Positions 1,595 through 10,593 of a stretch of DNA of 22,454 nucleotides are shown here, in pieces (positions within the stretch are counted from its first letter, which is position 1; the number at the start of each line of letters is the position of its first letter). This stretch comes from a virus, in the IMG/VR virus record IMGVR_UViG_3300027849_000065, positions 1-22,454 of that record. One strand, written 5' to 3'. Both the position numbers and the translations under genes were made by a program. The notes below the pieces were generated by a model. It worked only from the letters and a program-made list of their open reading frames with translations, was not told the origin of the DNA and made no database searches.

Positions 1595-1726
1595 TTATTG
1601 TTCGTCTGTGTTGCTAATGTTTCCAATTCCTTGCTTCCAATACTCTGGAGTTTCGCATCCTTTTACTGGATTTGTTTTACACTCTATTGAGTAAGTGTTT
1701 AAGCATTTACAATAAACCGCTCTCAT
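1595..1726 (-). CDS. Cysteine-rich small protein, 43 aa
   Basis: The start codon overlaps the stop of the protease gene as ATGA, implying translational coupling. The 43 residues contain four cysteines (6, 8, 16 and 24) spaced C-x-C-x7-C-x7-C, which could hold one metal ion. The C-terminus is polar. The gene fills the space between protease and 127-aa genes, leaving 14 bases before the next start. Function is unknown. Confidence 0.5.
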   Translation of the reverse strand: MRAVYCKCLNTYSIECKTNPVKGCETPEYWKQGIGNISNTDEQ

Positions 1727-2313
1727 TCTGACAATGCTTTTTTAAGTTCGTTTATTAGTTTATCTTCTGCTGATAGATTTTCTTCTATTTCTTCTTTTGG
1801 TCTTTCTAATTTATCTGCGAAATAACCCTCAATACTGAAACCCTTGCATTTTTTAGTCAAAATATATTCGTTCCAAACTTCGTCATTGTCAACTTTAACA
1901 GAACCCATCCAAGTACCTACTGGTACATCTAAACCATACAATGCAGTCTTGTCTTTTTCTTTATCTTCTACAATCCAACTCTCAACTAATGTTAATCCGC
2001 TTAAAACTTCATCATGTTCTAATGTTGATTGTGATTGATTGCCATTTTGCAGATACATTTGTGATGCTCTTGCAATAGTATCTTTACTAAAAAAAATGTA
2101 GTATTCTTCTTTACCATTTTTTCTGTAAATAGGTTTATTTGGTATTAATAAAGCACCCATTAATAAACGTTTCTCTTTGTTTATTTCTGCAAGTTTAATT
2201 TCTTGGTTATTAAGTGCTATAAAATCAGATTCAATTGCTGGATTTTCAACGACTGAAATTGCTTCTACTCCGATTGCTTCATCTTCATCTAAAATAAGTT
2301 CTATAATTCTCAT
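1723..2313 (-). CDS. XkdF-like putative prohead serine protease, 196 aa
   Basis: The sequence matches the layout I know for the phage XkdF-like putative protease family: an N-terminal Glu/Asp-rich part with Val-Val-Glu-Asn-Pro-Ala, then Leu-Glu-His-Asp (His100), Glu111-Ser-Trp-Ile-Val, Gly-Thr-Trp-Met, a Lys-Val-Asp...Trp segment, and Gly-Phe-Ser-Ile-Glu-Gly (Ser160). His100 and Ser160 are plausible catalytic residues. Such enzymes process scaffold and capsid during prohead maturation, and the downstream scaffold-like and capsid genes fit that. The ATG at 2313 is preceded by TATATAA three bases away. Family assignment is fairly confident; catalytic activity is inferred. Confidence 0.75.
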   Translation of the reverse strand: MRIIELILDEDEAIGVEAISVVENPAIESDFIALNNQEIKLAEINKEKRLLMGALLIPNKPIYRKNGKEEYYIFFSKDTIARASQMYLQNGNQSQSTLEHDEVLSGLTLVESWIVEDKEKDKTALYGLDVPVGTWMGSVKVDNDEVWNEYILTKKCKGFSIEGYFADKLERPKEEIEENLSAEDKLINELKKALSE

Positions 2314-2350: not shown

Positions 2351-4255
2351 TTAAATTGAAGCACCATCAATTATATTTCTATCCATTGATTGCGCAGAAG
2401 TTACATCCCCAGAAACAACATACGCTCTTGTAGGTTCTTGTGATTGTCCACCTATTGCATCCGCTAATTGATTTGTTCCACTTGCTCCAACTACGTTAAA
2501 TGCTGGAGGTTGTGATGGCATTGATGGGGTTGGTATATTTGGAACGGATGCACCAGCCGAACCAGCACTTGCTTTTGTTTTTGATACTGCACTTTTTACA
2601 GATTTAACAATCCCTACACCTTGTGCAATAGCACTAGCGATAGTAATAATGTTTTGAGGAAATCCAATTTTAGAACTTTCTGCAACGTTTTGCCCAGTAG
2701 CAACACCAGCTGCACCAATTGCTTCTGCACCTTTAAATGTAATTCGTTTTAAATCCATTAAAGTTTCTTGTAATGCTAAACCTTGCTTTACAATTAATAA
2801 TGCTTTACCTATTCCAGATTCAGCATTAGCAAACTGTGAAAGAGCATCAACAACCGATGCTTTATCTTTTATTTTTTGCCTATCTAATTCACTTTCTTTT
2901 TTTGCTAACTCTGCTTTAAGTGTAAAATTTTCTTCGTTGTTCGTATTTGTAAATTCATCCAAAGCAATTTGAGCATCTATCTTTGCTTGTGTACCTCCAT
3001 TTGCTAAATCTATTATAGCTTGTAACCTTTCTTCTTCTATTATTTTTTCAGCCTCGTTTATTTCAATAAGTTTCTCTAATCTTAATTGCTCATTTAAAAT
3101 TTGTTCTGCTGCAAACTTTTCTTTCTGTGTGTTTAAATTAGATTCGCTTTCTGTTTTTGAGTTTGTTAATTCTATTGCTTCTTTATCTAAAGCATTTGCA
3201 TTTGACATTTGCTCTGAACGAATACCCTCTATCTGCGCTCTAACTCCAGCCAATTCTTTTTCAGCTTCTATTTGTGCAACTTTAAATTCTACATTATTTT
3301 TATCTTTTTTTAGATTAGCATTTGCTAAAGCTAGTTGTAATTTAGCTTGTGATAGCATTCCTTTTTCAGCTTTAGAAATCTTTACAAGTAATTCATCATT
3401 TGCTTTTTTACGTTCAGTTATAGATTTTGTTTCGTCATCTCTTATTTGTCTTAACTTTTCTGCTTGTCTATCAAATTTTTCAAATATTAATCCTTGTCTT
3501 GCAGCTCCTAATTCAGCAGACTTCTGTAATTCAACATTTGCTTTTGCAGCTTTAACCGCAGCAGATACACTAACCTCACTTAATTCTTTTACTACTGTTT
3601 TTCCAGCGTTTCCAACTTCTGTTACTGCTTCACTAAAGTTATTATAAATATCAGAACCAGCTTTAATTGCTGCAACTCCAACTTCATAAATATTAGTCTT
3701 TGTTTCTGATATAGATTCTTTTAAAGACTTTATTGTTTCTGGGTCTTTATCTCCAAAGAAAGATTCCTCCCAAGCCAATTGTGCTGATTGTAAAGCTAAT
3801 TTAATTCCATAAAATGTATTTTTAAAAGGAGTTAATACAAGTGTTAATATGCCACCCATTACTTTTCCAAGTGCATCAAATTGTTCATTTGATTGTGTTA
3901 GTGCATCATAAATATCTGTGAAAGCATTTACAACTTGCCCAACTACATTTGCAGAAGTTTCAAAAACAACATTAAATAAATCAACTGCTTTTTGGTTCTG
4001 TTCAAATAAATCTTTTAAAGTAGAAAGTAATCCAATAATTAAACCAATACCAGCAGCCTTTAATGCAGTACCAATTCCCTTTACACCTTTTCCAACTAAA
4101 TTACTTGATTTTTCAACATCCTTTAAACCAGCAGCAGTATCTTTATTGCCTTTTGTAACTGTTTTATTTAAGTCCTCAACACTCTTTGCAACATTATCAA
4201 TCCCTTTTAGTGCTTTATCCGTTTTAGCTTCTAATTCAATAACTACTTTTTCCAT
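2351..4255 (-). CDS. Tail tape measure protein, 634 aa
   Basis: This is the longest structural tail protein here. It has a charged N-terminus, a hydrophobic Gly/Ile/Leu segment around residues 65-82 and another near 133-142, a long coiled-coil-rich centre (about 240-470) dominated by Glu, Lys, Ala and Gln, then an Ala/Gly/Ser/Pro-rich C-terminal tail. This architecture is typical of tape measure proteins, which set tail length and enter the cell on infection. At roughly 0.15 nm per residue it would imply a tail near 95 nm (inference). The ATG at 4255 lies inside the end of an overlapping 47-aa gene, so translation is probably coupled. Confidence 0.85.
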   Translation of the reverse strand: MEKVVIELEAKTDKALKGIDNVAKSVEDLNKTVTKGNKDTAAGLKDVEKSSNLVGKGVKGIGTALKAAGIGLIIGLLSTLKDLFEQNQKAVDLFNVVFETSANVVGQVVNAFTDIYDALTQSNEQFDALGKVMGGILTLVLTPFKNTFYGIKLALQSAQLAWEESFFGDKDPETIKSLKESISETKTNIYEVGVAAIKAGSDIYNNFSEAVTEVGNAGKTVVKELSEVSVSAAVKAAKANVELQKSAELGAARQGLIFEKFDRQAEKLRQIRDDETKSITERKKANDELLVKISKAEKGMLSQAKLQLALANANLKKDKNNVEFKVAQIEAEKELAGVRAQIEGIRSEQMSNANALDKEAIELTNSKTESESNLNTQKEKFAAEQILNEQLRLEKLIEINEAEKIIEEERLQAIIDLANGGTQAKIDAQIALDEFTNTNNEENFTLKAELAKKESELDRQKIKDKASVVDALSQFANAESGIGKALLIVKQGLALQETLMDLKRITFKGAEAIGAAGVATGQNVAESSKIGFPQNIITIASAIAQGVGIVKSVKSAVSKTKASAGSAGASVPNIPTPSMPSQPPAFNVVGASGTNQLADAIGGQSQEPTRAYVVSGDVTSAQSMDRNIIDGASI

Positions 4256-7540: not shown

Positions 7541-8068
7541 TTATTTATTGTTTATACTGTTTTTCATTAGTGCCTCAACATCTAATTTGTATGCTTCTAC
7601 TAATTCCTTATTCAATCCTTTAAATGCTTTCTCAAATGGTTTGGTAAAGAATAGACTTGGTGCAATTCCTTTCTGATAAATACTTCTACTAATTAAAAAA
7701 GCAGTACTATCATAACTTAAAAACCTTCCGCTTTTTTTATCTCTAAATTGAAACCTTTTTCTTTTTACCCATTTGTTAATACCCTCACTTAATCCACCTT
7801 TCCTGCCAGTACCAGATCCAAACTTAAAAGGACTGTTAGGTGCTTTTGCACTTGAACTTTTACCTCTTACACCTTTGTCTTGAAAGACTCCATAGTCCTC
7901 CATCATAAAAGCTAACTGAAAACTATTCTTAGAAACCTTTACATCAGAGTCTAAACTTTTAGCTAATTTCCCAGAACTGTTTTTATCAGAACCACGAAGA
8001 TTTACTCTTGCTTTTGTAACTACATACTTTGCGAAATTCTTTAATTCTTTTTCTACATTGCTTAACAT
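7541..8068 (-). CDS. HK97 gp10-like head-tail joining / tail completion protein, 175 aa
   Basis: A small basic protein with an N-terminal helix (Ala-Lys-Tyr-Val...Ala-Arg-Val-Asn-Leu), a Ser-Gly-Lys-Leu-Ala-Lys-Ser-Leu segment, and Met-Glu-Asp-Tyr-Gly-Val-Phe-Gln-Asp-Lys-Gly-Val followed by a basic Arg-Lys-Arg loop. This arrangement (helix, then x-Tyr-Gly-x-Phe/Val...Lys-Gly) is what I associate with HK97 gp10-type tail completion proteins. It overlaps the upstream tail-terminator-like gene by 7 bases, and such pairs are usually adjacent. The assignment is by motif resemblance and neighbourhood. Confidence 0.6.
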   Translation of the reverse strand: MLSNVEKELKNFAKYVVTKARVNLRGSDKNSSGKLAKSLDSDVKVSKNSFQLAFMMEDYGVFQDKGVRGKSSSAKAPNSPFKFGSGTGRKGGLSEGINKWVKRKRFQFRDKKSGRFLSYDSTAFLISRSIYQKGIAPSLFFTKPFEKAFKGLNKELVEAYKLDVEALMKNSINNK

Positions 8069-8517
8069 ATACTTATGTCATTTGGTATAATCACATCAAA
8101 GGTTAATGCCCATCCAGCAACTTCTGCCTCAAACCTATCATAGAAAGGTTCAAAACTTGGAGAACCATCTAACTGATATAAATCTTGGTGTAATGTGCCA
8201 CCTCTTAATACTTGCACTAACTTATTTAGTACTGCTAATTGTGTGTTCAATATATCTTGCTCGTTGTTATTCCCTATGAATATATCTACCACTTCTTCTT
8301 TTGAAATGTTTACTACATCCATAGCTAAAACAGATAAGCTAAAACGTAATATGTTATCCTCGTTTCCTACATTGTTAACTATAATATGTGATAAAGGAAA
8401 CATTGTCTGCTTCGATAAATCTATTCTTGTGATGTCTCCAGTTGTAACTGTGTTCACATTTACATCCGCTAACAGTTGGTCTTTTATTACTTGGGTAACT
8501 TGATAAAATCCTTTCAT
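8062..8517 (-). CDS. Tail terminator-like / tail completion protein, 151 aa
   Basis: The protein has an N-terminal helix, a mid-section with Phe-Pro-Leu-Ser-His-Ile-Ile-Val-Asn, and a C-terminal Phe-x-x-Arg-Phe-Glu-Ala-Glu-Val-Ala-Gly-Trp-Ala-x-Thr-Phe-x-Val strand pair. Size, fold pattern and position next to a gp10-like gene suit the proteins that cap the tail tube at the head-proximal end. The ATG at 8517 follows directly on the stop of the -1 frame of the chaperone gene (TAAATG). That arrangement supports translation of the shifted frame. Function is inferred. Confidence 0.55.
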   Translation of the reverse strand: MKGFYQVTQVIKDQLLADVNVNTVTTGDITRIDLSKQTMFPLSHIIVNNVGNEDNILRFSLSVLAMDVVNISKEEVVDIFIGNNNEQDILNTQLAVLNKLVQVLRGGTLHQDLYQLDGSPSFEPFYDRFEAEVAGWALTFDVIIPNDISIC

Positions 8518-9254
8518 TTAAAACTTACTTTTTATTTGTTGTGCTTCTATCTCTGCTTTCTCTTTCATAAAGGATAGCATTGTGAAACATTGATGTACAT
8601 TTAGTTTAGTGATATCTTCAAATTTTGTAATATCTCCGTTAGAGAGCCCATAAATTGATTGATACCAACCCCACTTTGCTCCGAAGTTAGCTGCCCTTGA
8701 ATAGCCTGCATTTCCGTTTGATTGCTGGAAGAGAGAATCGTATGCTTCGATAACTCCATTCCTAAATTCAGAAAAAAAAAGACTGAACCTATTGCAGCAC
8801 CTAGAGGCATATCCTTCATTTTCTCTGGATTCTTTACGTCGTACTCTTCAATGTTATATTTACCCACCTTACTTATTTTGGTTGGTCTGTATAAGACATT
8901 CATTGCAACGTGCATTTGCTCCCACTTAGAAACATTGTTGTCTAAATCTATATACTCTCCTAAAGACATATCATCTAAGTCTGGGATGAATCCATATTCA
9001 ATACCATTTAATTCAAAACGTTCTGTATGTTTTGGTGTTTGGCTAAGTAGTTCATTTATAATATCGACAATAGCAGCTGCACTAGACATCTTTAGTTTGT
9101 AGCTATCTGACAAAGGAATGCCACAAAATATCTCTATCATTTTAGCATCCAAGAAATTACCCTCTGGATTGTTTTCAGCTATTTTTAAATACTTTTGGTA
9201 CTGTCCTAGCGTTACTTCGTTAATTGATGTTGGTACATTAATCTCTATCTTCAT
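8518..9254 (-). CDS. Predicted -1 frameshift product of the tail chaperone (GT-like), 245 aa
   Basis: Slipping one base back at the T9 run (8772-8780) keeps the first 161 residues and adds 84 from the -1 frame, ending at TAA 8520-8518 immediately before the next gene's ATG. The added part reads as a real protein: Lys-Trp-Gly-Trp-Tyr-Gln-Ser-Ile-Tyr, Gly-Asp-Ile-Thr-Lys-Phe-Glu, Val-His-Gln-Cys-Phe-Thr-Met-Leu, then a charged Lys/Glu helix. This Trp-Tyr...Gly-Asp...Phe...helix layout resembles the T part of tail-chaperone fusions. The shifted frame has no start of its own that would include the Trp-rich segment. A sequencing indel in the homopolymer is the alternative. Confidence 0.6.
8601..9254 (-). 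CDS. Tail assembly chaperone, zero-frame (G-like) form, 217 aa
   Basis: The unshifted product has an N-terminal domain with Glu-Val-Thr-Leu-Gly-Gln-Tyr-Gln, a central Phe-Ile-Pro-Asp-Leu-Asp-Asp-Met-Ser-Leu-Gly-Glu-Tyr-Ile-Asp-Leu segment (about residues 88-105), and Ala-Met-Asn-Val-Leu-Tyr-Arg-Pro. Residues 159-161 are Phe-Phe-Phe, encoded by nine consecutive T. After them the frame continues 56 residues to a TAA at 8601. I read it as the shorter partner of a G/GT pair that chaperones the tape measure during tail assembly. The ATG at 9254 follows TATATAA by two bases. Unlike most siphophages it lies six genes upstream of the tape measure. Confidence 0.65.
   Translation of the reverse strand: MKIEINVPTSINEVTLGQYQKYLKIAENNPEGNFLDAKMIEIFCGIPLSDSYKLKMSSAAAIVDIINELLSQTPKHTERFELNGIEYGFIPDLDDMSLGEYIDLDNNVSKWEQMHVAMNVLYRPTKISKVGKYNIEEYDVKNPEKMKDMPLGAAIGSVFFFLNLGMELSKHTILSSSNQTEMQAIQGQLTSEQSGVGINQFMGSLTEILQNLKISLN
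8772..8780 (-). other. Slippery site U_UUU_UUU (T9 run) for -1 frameshift
   Basis: The coding strand has nine T between GTC and CTG, filling exactly three zero-frame Phe codons, so the heptamer T-TTT-TTT lies in the phase needed for tandem -1 slippage. RNA polymerase slippage adding one U would give the same -1 frame. I see no strong downstream hairpin, only short AUCG/CGAU arms beginning some 20 bases later. Confidence 0.6.
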
Positions 9255-9277: not shown

Positions 9278-9427
9278 CTATTTTATGAAATAAGCCTTAC
9301 AATTTTCATAAGCCTTTGTAAGTAGTAGGTAGTGGTTAGGTTTTGAAGGCTTGGCAATCCTAATTTGTTTGCCTGTTCTGTGATGTATGAAGCATTCAAG
9401 AACTGCTATCATTTGAATGTTATCCAT
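9278..9427 (-). CDS. 49-aa protein coupled to the large terminase gene
   Basis: The start shares one base with the terminase stop (TAATG), a common coupling arrangement in this operon. The product is small and basic, with a His-His-Arg-Thr-Gly-Lys segment at residues 15-20 and two cysteines. I recognise no family. It ends 23 bases before the tail chaperone start. Confidence 0.5.
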   Translation of the reverse strand: MDNIQMIAVLECFIHHRTGKQIRIAKPSKPNHYLLLTKAYENCKAYFIK

Positions 9428-10593
9428 TATCTCACAAAGTATTTTCCAGCGTTAGGGTTCTTTAACTGAGAAGAGATTGCATAACGTGCTGCATCGATAC
9501 AATGGTTAAAAGCATCAATAGGTTTATTAATAGTATTCCCTTCTCTATCTTTCATCCAAGTATAAGACTGCAACTCTTTAATTAAGTTCTTGCTTCTACT
9601 TGTTACAAAGATTTTGTTTTGGTTGATTAGATTGATACCATATACAATTGAGTCTTTACCTTTAGTACAAGGCAATACTTTATGTCTGTACGTTCTTAGT
9701 TCTGCAATTGATTTAGGTTCTGCTGAGTCTGCATAGATTACACCCTCTATATTATTTGTAGTTAATAGATTTGAGATGTCTATGTTTAGAAGTTTCTTTT
9801 GGTATATAATCTCATCGAAGATATACCCATCATTGTATTTATATAATCCTATTAAAGTTGTTGGATCATTACTATATCCAAAATCCATTCCGTAACACAG
9901 TAACCTTGCTTCTTCTGGTAGTTGGTTTATCTCTTTCCAATCTGTAATACATACACCATCTAAAGAACCAATCTGACCAAGACCATATACTTGCCACCAG
10001 TTACTCCAATAGGTAGAATCTTTTGCTTTCTCTCTTGCTCGTTCAATATCTTTTACAATGGTCTGTGGTAATGCTTCATTGTCTAAATAGGTTAATGTGA
10101 TAAAGTCTGCATCATCATTACCAGCTACTTCTTTATGTGCCCAGAAGTTAGCGGTCGGGTTGAAGTCAATCCATATATCCCCAGATGTTCGAATTGATAA
10201 TTGTTGGTATGCCTCAAAGGGTACATTGTTTGCTTCATTGACATACAATACATTCCTTCTTGCACCTCTTAATTTATCTGGTTGTTCTACTGAGAAGAAT
10301 TCTATATAAGATCCATTAGTAAAAGTATAAGTTAAAGATGACCTATTCCATTGGCTATCTTTAAACCTATTAGTTAGCATCATAATTTTTAAAAAATCAC
10401 GTATGCACCCACGACGCAAATGTGGTATAGACTCAGACACTACACTAGTTTCTAGCATAGGAGTTCTAATACATCTATCTATTAAGATAGGAAGTATCCC
10501 AAAAGTTTTTCCAGCAGAAGTTCCTCCTTGTATTACTTTCTTTCTATTCTTTAAAGCATGGAGTTTCCTAATTGCAGTTGTTGTTTGAAACAT
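9427..10593 (-). CDS. terL: Terminase large subunit, 388 aa
   Basis: This is the packaging motor ATPase and nuclease that cuts concatemeric DNA and pumps it into proheads. The Walker A motif Gly-Gly-Thr-Ser-Ala-Gly-Lys-Thr is at residues 23-30. Walker B, Val-Leu-Tyr-Val-Asn-Glu-Ala-Asn, is at 115-122 with catalytic Glu120. The C-terminal nuclease has the expected acidic residues in Gly-Met-Asp-Phe-Gly-Tyr (Asp237), Ile-Tyr-Ala-Asp-Ser (Asp289) and Asn-His-Cys-Ile-Asp-Ala-Ala-Arg-Tyr (Asp367). It directly follows the small subunit gene. At 388 residues it is at the short end for the family but all core motifs are present. Confidence 0.93.
   Translation of the reverse strand: MFQTTTAIRKLHALKNRKKVIQGGTSAGKTFGILPILIDRCIRTPMLETSVVSESIPHLRRGCIRDFLKIMMLTNRFKDSQWNRSSLTYTFTNGSYIEFFSVEQPDKLRGARRNVLYVNEANNVPFEAYQQLSIRTSGDIWIDFNPTANFWAHKEVAGNDDADFITLTYLDNEALPQTIVKDIERAREKAKDSTYWSNWWQVYGLGQIGSLDGVCITDWKEINQLPEEARLLCYGMDFGYSNDPTTLIGLYKYNDGYIFDEIIYQKKLLNIDISNLLTTNNIEGVIYADSAEPKSIAELRTYRHKVLPCTKGKDSIVYGINLINQNKIFVTSRSKNLIKELQSYTWMKDREGNTINKPIDAFNHCIDAARYAISSQLKNPNAGKYFVR

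Follow-up and report, generated by a model that had tools for sequence, protein, structure and literature searches.

A gene found throughout a family of Bacteroidota phages carries an uninterrupted run of Ts past which two reading frames are both under selection; two C-termini are therefore made from one DNA stretch. Among its homologues, the -1 relation between the two parts of the gene and a run of at least nine Ts, free of codon phase, are nearly universal. The reading put forward here, to which a probability of roughly 0.55 is assigned, is that this Bacteroidota-wide phage family fixes the proportion of two tail chaperone forms by letting RNA polymerase, and not the ribosome, slip on at least nine consecutive Ts, with two alternative selected C-termini encoded in the same DNA. 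Within this reading, we infer the slipping of the polymerase rather than the ribosome, the product ratio, and the chaperone role. As proposed, one gene would yield two proteins with about 160 common N-terminal residues. Unslipped mRNA would be translated into a short form of 217 aa that ends in the zero-frame tail, and slippage of RNA polymerase on the T run, with the gain of one U (or the loss of two), would permit normal translation to produce a long form of about 245 aa that ends in an 84-residue -1 domain; loss of one U would lead into the +1 frame, where translation would end a few codons on. In a set ratio, the two forms would most likely play the part of lambda gpG/gpGT, chaperoning tail assembly around the tape measure protein.

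Two reading frames past one T run

The DNA analysed (hereafter the window) is a 22,454-base IMG/VR virus record, and the recoded gene in it comprises the following features.

8601..9254, minus strand: zero-frame gene, short product of 217 aa (ORF list and translation; homologues; PHROG 32199, which has no function annotated)
8772..8780, minus strand: T9 slip run, A9 on the plus strand (sequence; codons GTC TTT TTT TTT CTG)
8518..8772, minus strand: -1 frame, 84-codon C-terminal domain of the putative long product of about 245 aa (translation; conserved motif; helical model)
8604..8771, minus strand: dual-coding stretch of 168 nt, zero and -1 frames (codon-position pattern; stop-avoidance tests)
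8768..8770, minus strand: +1-frame TGA stop immediately 3' of the T9 run (sequence)

The first-pass annotation of this DNA had described a T9 run that fills three zero-frame Phe codons with U_UUU_UUU in phase, followed by a -1 frame that stays open for 84 codons and ends right before the next ATG, and the sequence confirms both descriptions. The run (8780..8772), the sole A/T homopolymer of at least nine in the window, forms codons 159-161 (TTT TTT TTT) of the zero-frame ORF, with GTC before and CTG after, and holds the in-phase heptamer at 8778..8772. The short product consists of 161 aa through the end of the run and a 56-aa zero-frame tail; these 56 further codons, a second selected C-terminus, had been omitted from that annotation. 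In the -1 frame, translation after the run proceeds from SEFRNG to KSKF, includes a conserved F..KWGWY..I..LA.GD motif, and terminates at a TAA (8520..8518) that the ATG of the next gene (8517..8515) directly abuts.

Evidence that both frames code past the run comes from the substitution pattern in 64 disjoint pairs of related sequences. Over the ten codons that directly follow the run, the rates at -1 codon positions 1, 2, and 3 are 0.219, 0.089, and 0.039, a pattern that is the mark of a dominant zero frame. Over the overlap, the corresponding rates are 0.133, 0.074, and 0.142, and beyond the zero-frame stop they are 0.086, 0.038, and 0.212; the share of substitutions that falls on the third -1 position is 0.41 (0.38-0.43) within the overlap versus 0.63 (0.60-0.67) after it. 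When the -1 amino acids were fixed and codons were drawn from usage, a zero frame open for as long as that observed had a P of 0.000-0.16 across 18 lineages (P = 0.028 for the window), and 32 of 63 clusters hold the zero frame open at P<0.05. The median zero-frame tail is 55 codons long (range 16-85), and 140 of 155 distinct close relatives have its stop at a shared alignment column. Of the 155, 139 have exactly two +1 codons before the +1 stop and a further 12 have none, an early stop that would cap the products of a single-base deletion.

Two smaller observations concern the same stretch. Throughout the 155 distinct sequences, the +1 stop lies 0-4 codons past the run and is mostly a TAG in a near-invariant TTTAGG. 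Additionally, a close relative with T10 (L017) has a zero-frame tail of 6 codons instead of 56, and is a natural variant without the dual-coding tail.

Frame relation and run length among relatives

Loci were classified independently of the run, by profile HMMs of the N-terminal part and the -1 part; the 420 loci in which both parts were detected were deduplicated to 302 distinct junctions, which form 64 clusters at 60% identity. The -1 relation is present in 419 of the 420 loci, every one of them with a T run of at least nine (T9 in 258, T10 in 145, and T12 in 16), and 301 of the 302 distinct junctions are in the -1 state with a run of 9, 10, or 12. Across the 64 clusters the run has 9 or 10 Ts and begins at codon position 1, 2, or 3 in 6, 47, and 11 clusters, respectively. 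Programmed recoding into the -1 frame, as first predicted from the window, is thus strongly supported, both frames being selected and the run being conserved at nine or more in these 419 loci. That the -1 frame is not open by chance is shown by the same loci and by an IMG/VR search in which this frame alone retrieved 194 relatives (the zero frame alone retrieved 236). It had also been reasoned that ten Ts would make one continuous gene, but T10 relatives occur only in registers that keep the -1 relation; the companion notion, of homologues that lack the run and conserve one frame only, did not hold across the homologues.

The sole locus of the 420 outside the -1 relation (L381) has a T7 and its halves in frame, the loci closest to it (L477 and L478) show a T9 in -1, and seven is the length expected from T9 minus two Ts. 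The roles may be reversed in L381, with the long form as the standard product and the short form made by slipping, or else an indel error may be responsible. Located at about 2090-2249 of a contig shared with L476, L381 is the only in-frame relative to keep a residual T run, which reads ATT TTT TTA (an in-phase U_UUU_UUA); its -1 frame stops after about 8 codons. A further locus, L259:100-190 (genome G783, GC-rich Bacteroidales), which is not among the 420 because its N-terminal part is cut by the contig end, has the -1 relation and the conserved -1 domain, yet a T5 only (TCG GTT TTT CAG). From a continuous single-frame fused gene without a T run (L261 / L314:2830-3636), it is evident that the standard product can be the long form.

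Among phage records, isolates with a homologue are limited to the Nonlabens phages P12024L and P12024S, whose gp40/gp41 are true homologues at about 30% identity and document both the T9 run and the -1 relation for an isolate; they differ in being annotated as two hypothetical genes and in having a zero-frame tail of only about 25 codons. In P12024L (L157, 4001-4695), gp40 and gp41 appear to be one recoded gene.

Polymerase or ribosome at the run

Tailed phages that recode their tail chaperones are a classic example of ribosomal -1 frameshifting, and Xu, Hendrix and Duda reportedly described such -1 frameshifts in the tail assembly chaperones of tailed phages in 2004. In the gene considered here, RNA polymerase slippage is nonetheless judged, from sequence comparison, to be the probable main step. 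It is favoured because the floor of nine holds in every codon phase, because neither alternative heptamers nor stimulators are found, and because T runs of at least nine are avoided by the host. A programmed -1 shift by the ribosome at U_UUU_UUU, of the lambda G/GT kind, wherein the P- and A-site tRNA-Phe would move back by one base, perhaps mixed with polymerase slippage, is a possible but distinctly less likely account. A programmed frameshift at this heptamer is also what the first-pass annotation had given, of which the recoding into -1 and the in-phase heptamer stand, whereas the floor in all codon phases, the missing stimulators, and the host avoidance appear to fit polymerase slippage better than a ribosomal slip.

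An in-phase heptamer is present in the window and wherever the run has nine or more Ts, as ribosomal frameshifting would have it; however, a stretch of nine Ts cannot avoid including an in-phase U_UUU_UUU, and the heptamer alone therefore decides nothing. Two Ts of each T9 are unneeded for the heptamer (which two varies with codon phase), yet not one run shorter than nine occurs in the 301 distinct -1 junctions, whatever the codon phase, and no alternative slip heptamer is used in any of them. Relative to the protein alignment, the run shifts over five bases without its length ever falling below nine; its start and end are coupled (r 0.94), and 0 of 5000 shuffles left all runs at nine or more. 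Given that hydrophobic codons lengthen T runs, which weakens the simple argument that T9 or longer exceeds the heptamer, a constrained permutation was performed in which an in-phase heptamer was kept in each cluster. This permutation, which takes clusters as independent and is without amino-acid constraint or phylogeny, gave a mean of 11.5 runs shorter than nine and a minimum of 7 in 949 samples, against 0 observed in the 64 clusters. As evidence for polymerase slippage, the run-length floor is strong but not conclusive.

Published work is consistent with polymerase slippage: polymerase insertions increase exponentially with homopolymer length (PMC5574713), bacterial genes exploit A/T runs for slippage (PMC1088944), and U_UUU_UUU is a much weaker site for E. 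coli ribosomes than A_AAA_AAG (PMC5009743). Host genes further speak against a heptamer-driven slip, inasmuch as those of one Flavobacteriaceae genome tolerate in-phase T7-T8 runs (56 versus 47 +/- 6 expected), which are not avoided. Runs of at least nine in the same genes number 1 versus 11.8 +/- 2.7 expected for T and 8 versus 25.7 expected for A; in the genes of a Bacteroidales genome, there are 0 T runs of at least nine versus 6.9 expected, and T runs from length five upward all fall short of expectation. Replication slippage could be an alternative cause of this avoidance, and the shortage of shorter T runs in the Bacteroidales genome likewise counts against the polymerase reading.

No RNA structure was found downstream (mean z -0.56 at 50 nt and -0.2 at 90 nt) or upstream of the run in 29 lineages, and an upstream Shine-Dalgarno-like site was found in 0 of the 29. 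This absence is weak evidence and counts for little, since lambda G/GT also lacks stimulators; indeed, lambda G/GT and many tailed phages shift frame without them (PMC5009743), a point in favour of the ribosome. So is the retention of the -1 relation by L259 with its T5 only, a length that polymerase slippage would hardly serve.

In comparison with known systems, the gene resembles lambda gpG/gpGT in that one gene gives two products with a common N-terminal part and a C-terminal extension in the -1 frame, within a tail gene block and with no obvious stimulator. It differs in that the slip site is T9 or longer as opposed to the varied heptamers of lambda-type phages, that a second selected tail of about 55 zero-frame codons follows the slip, and that no sequence relation between the two pairs is detectable. 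With the transcriptional slippage genes (Shigella mxiE, Thermus dnaX, and IS elements; Baranov et al., 2005), the gene has in common an uninterrupted run of at least nine whose length is conserved, the lack of translational stimulators, and the rarity of such runs in other genes; it differs from them in the long dual-coding stretch common to the -1 and zero-frame products and in that its mRNA heterogeneity is predicted. Potyvirus P3N-PIPO offers another parallel, in which slippage of a polymerase adds a base and opens a second frame over a long main frame, although there the enzyme is an RNA virus polymerase, the site is GA6, insertion amounts to about 2%, and the protein is unrelated (PMC5009743).

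Other explanations of the two frames fare considerably worse. Two separate genes, with a -1 start codon that belongs to the downstream one, as P12024L gp40/gp41 are annotated, would be an unlikely arrangement: the run marks the onset of -1 conservation, at a point where the window has no start codon, the -1 frame is open for merely 9-15 nt upstream of the junction in many relatives, and the T run would be needless. An independent downstream gene was rejected on these grounds. A phase-variable contingency locus, in which DNA replication slippage would toggle the long form, is very improbable. Intragenic homopolymers are the usual substrate for such switching, but a mix of on and off states would be expected among relatives, whereas all distinct junctions but one share the -1 state and selection acts on both frames simultaneously; phase variation was accordingly rejected. 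Least credible of all is a sequencing or assembly error, or a disrupted gene, with a true run of T10 and a single ORF, which might be entertained because homopolymers are error-prone and some relatives (L381 and L261) are single-frame, but which is refuted for the family by the shared -1 state of those junctions, drawn from independent assemblies, an isolate phage, and two bacterial-genome copies on contigs of 3.9 and 4.3 Mb, as well as by selection on the zero frame past the run.

The -1 recoding of a tail gene is already known. A conserved site of nine or more Ts in place of varied heptamers, together with a long selected dual-coding tail, is new relative to the open-access literature, as far as that literature shows; searches of it turned up no report of phage tail genes using transcriptional slippage. 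We know of no phage tail gene among the mxiE-, dnaX-, and IS-type cases. If the slip has moved to RNA polymerase with the two-product outcome kept, selection would hold the product ratio and not the decoding step, and the slippage rate of the host polymerase would set the phage assembly ratio in Bacteroidota. The dual-coding tail is also a good system for the study of two frames that evolve under joint constraint.

Gene neighbourhood, tail role, and spread

The genes around the recoded pair in the window include the following.

9427..10593, minus strand: terminase large subunit, upstream gene (Terminase_3 and Terminase_3C; Pfam PF17288, E 9e-19, and PF04466, E 8e-10)
8062..8517, minus strand: next gene, 151 aa, which starts directly after the -1 stop (ORF list; PHROG 30964)
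7541..8068, minus strand: 175-aa gene with a gp10-type tail completion likeness by eye only and no named family match (PHROG 29822, which has no function annotated; same place in prophage L312)
2351..4255, minus strand: probable tape measure, 634 aa (weak PHROG matches, including a virion structural protein)
1723..2313, minus strand: XkdF-like protease

The gene order is terminase, recoded pair, 151-aa gene, 175-aa gene, 374-aa gene, 676-aa gene, 634-aa probable tape measure, and XkdF-like protease. The earlier observation that the pair comes right after terminase, and not beside the tape measure, agrees with this order, in which four genes separate the pair from the putative tape measure, both in the window and in prophage L312. 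In L314, the fused gene lies two genes before a protein with a TMP_2 match (E 9e-6, below the cut-off), and this protein is in a matching position to the 634-aa protein of the window. From 10593 to 1723, the modules of the window run terminase, tail, then head, an unusual order that L312 likewise has, with the portal last.

A tail-chaperone role for the pair is plausible by analogy, from its G/GT-like architecture and its position in the tail block, and to this extent the initial assignment as a tail chaperone gene stands; it finds no counterpart among sequence families and one weak structural match. Lambda-type G/GT, characterised also by binding to the tape measure and the tail tube protein and by absence from virions, lies directly before the tape measure and after the major tail protein gene, whereas the pair here follows terminase, several genes before the tape measure; the pair is therefore likened to G/GT and not classed as a member. 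Searches of Pfam, NCBIfam, and PDB sequences with the pair returned no functional family, and neither structural model (N-terminal part, pLDDT 82; -1 domain, pLDDT 76 and all helical) had a significant PDB fold match; absence of a family match is compatible with, and does not exclude, a chaperone fold. In BFVD, the N-terminal model retrieves the P12024S protein, numerous unnamed phage proteins, and, as a weak match, one protein named tail assembly chaperone (A0A8S5V8Z8, E 0.017, TM 0.40). Several single-chain BFVD proteins (e.g., A0A516L5A8 and A0A6J5N0W0) match both the N-terminal and the -1 models, and the long form therefore appears to be one ORF in some relatives.

Alignment-led scans extended the homologues to about 30% identity, a genome scan added MAGs of Winogradskyella, Psychroflexus, a Bacteroidetes bacterium, and a Tannerellaceae bacterium, and more copies, down to about 20% identity, came from the Flavobacteriaceae and Bacteroidales genomes searched. 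Among 50,697 phage records, the zero-frame search found the Nonlabens phages only, and tblastn with the -1 domain gave no match at E up to 1. The homologous loci are those of phages and prophages of Flavobacteria and Bacteroidales, including one isolate phage. The family of recoded genes spans Bacteroidota phages phylum-wide, a spread that is new relative to the open-access literature, as far as that literature shows; no report of frameshifted tail chaperones in Bacteroides or Flavobacterium phages is found in it. In databases, the gene is truncated or appears as two hypothetical ORFs; the T run provides a simple marker with which to correct annotation across many Bacteroidota phages. One homologue with an intact T9 is located on a Bacteroidales chromosome (L311:8746-9490, genome G533), where the neighbours within 20 kb resemble ordinary host genes (SusC/SusD-like by eye) and not a phage tail block.
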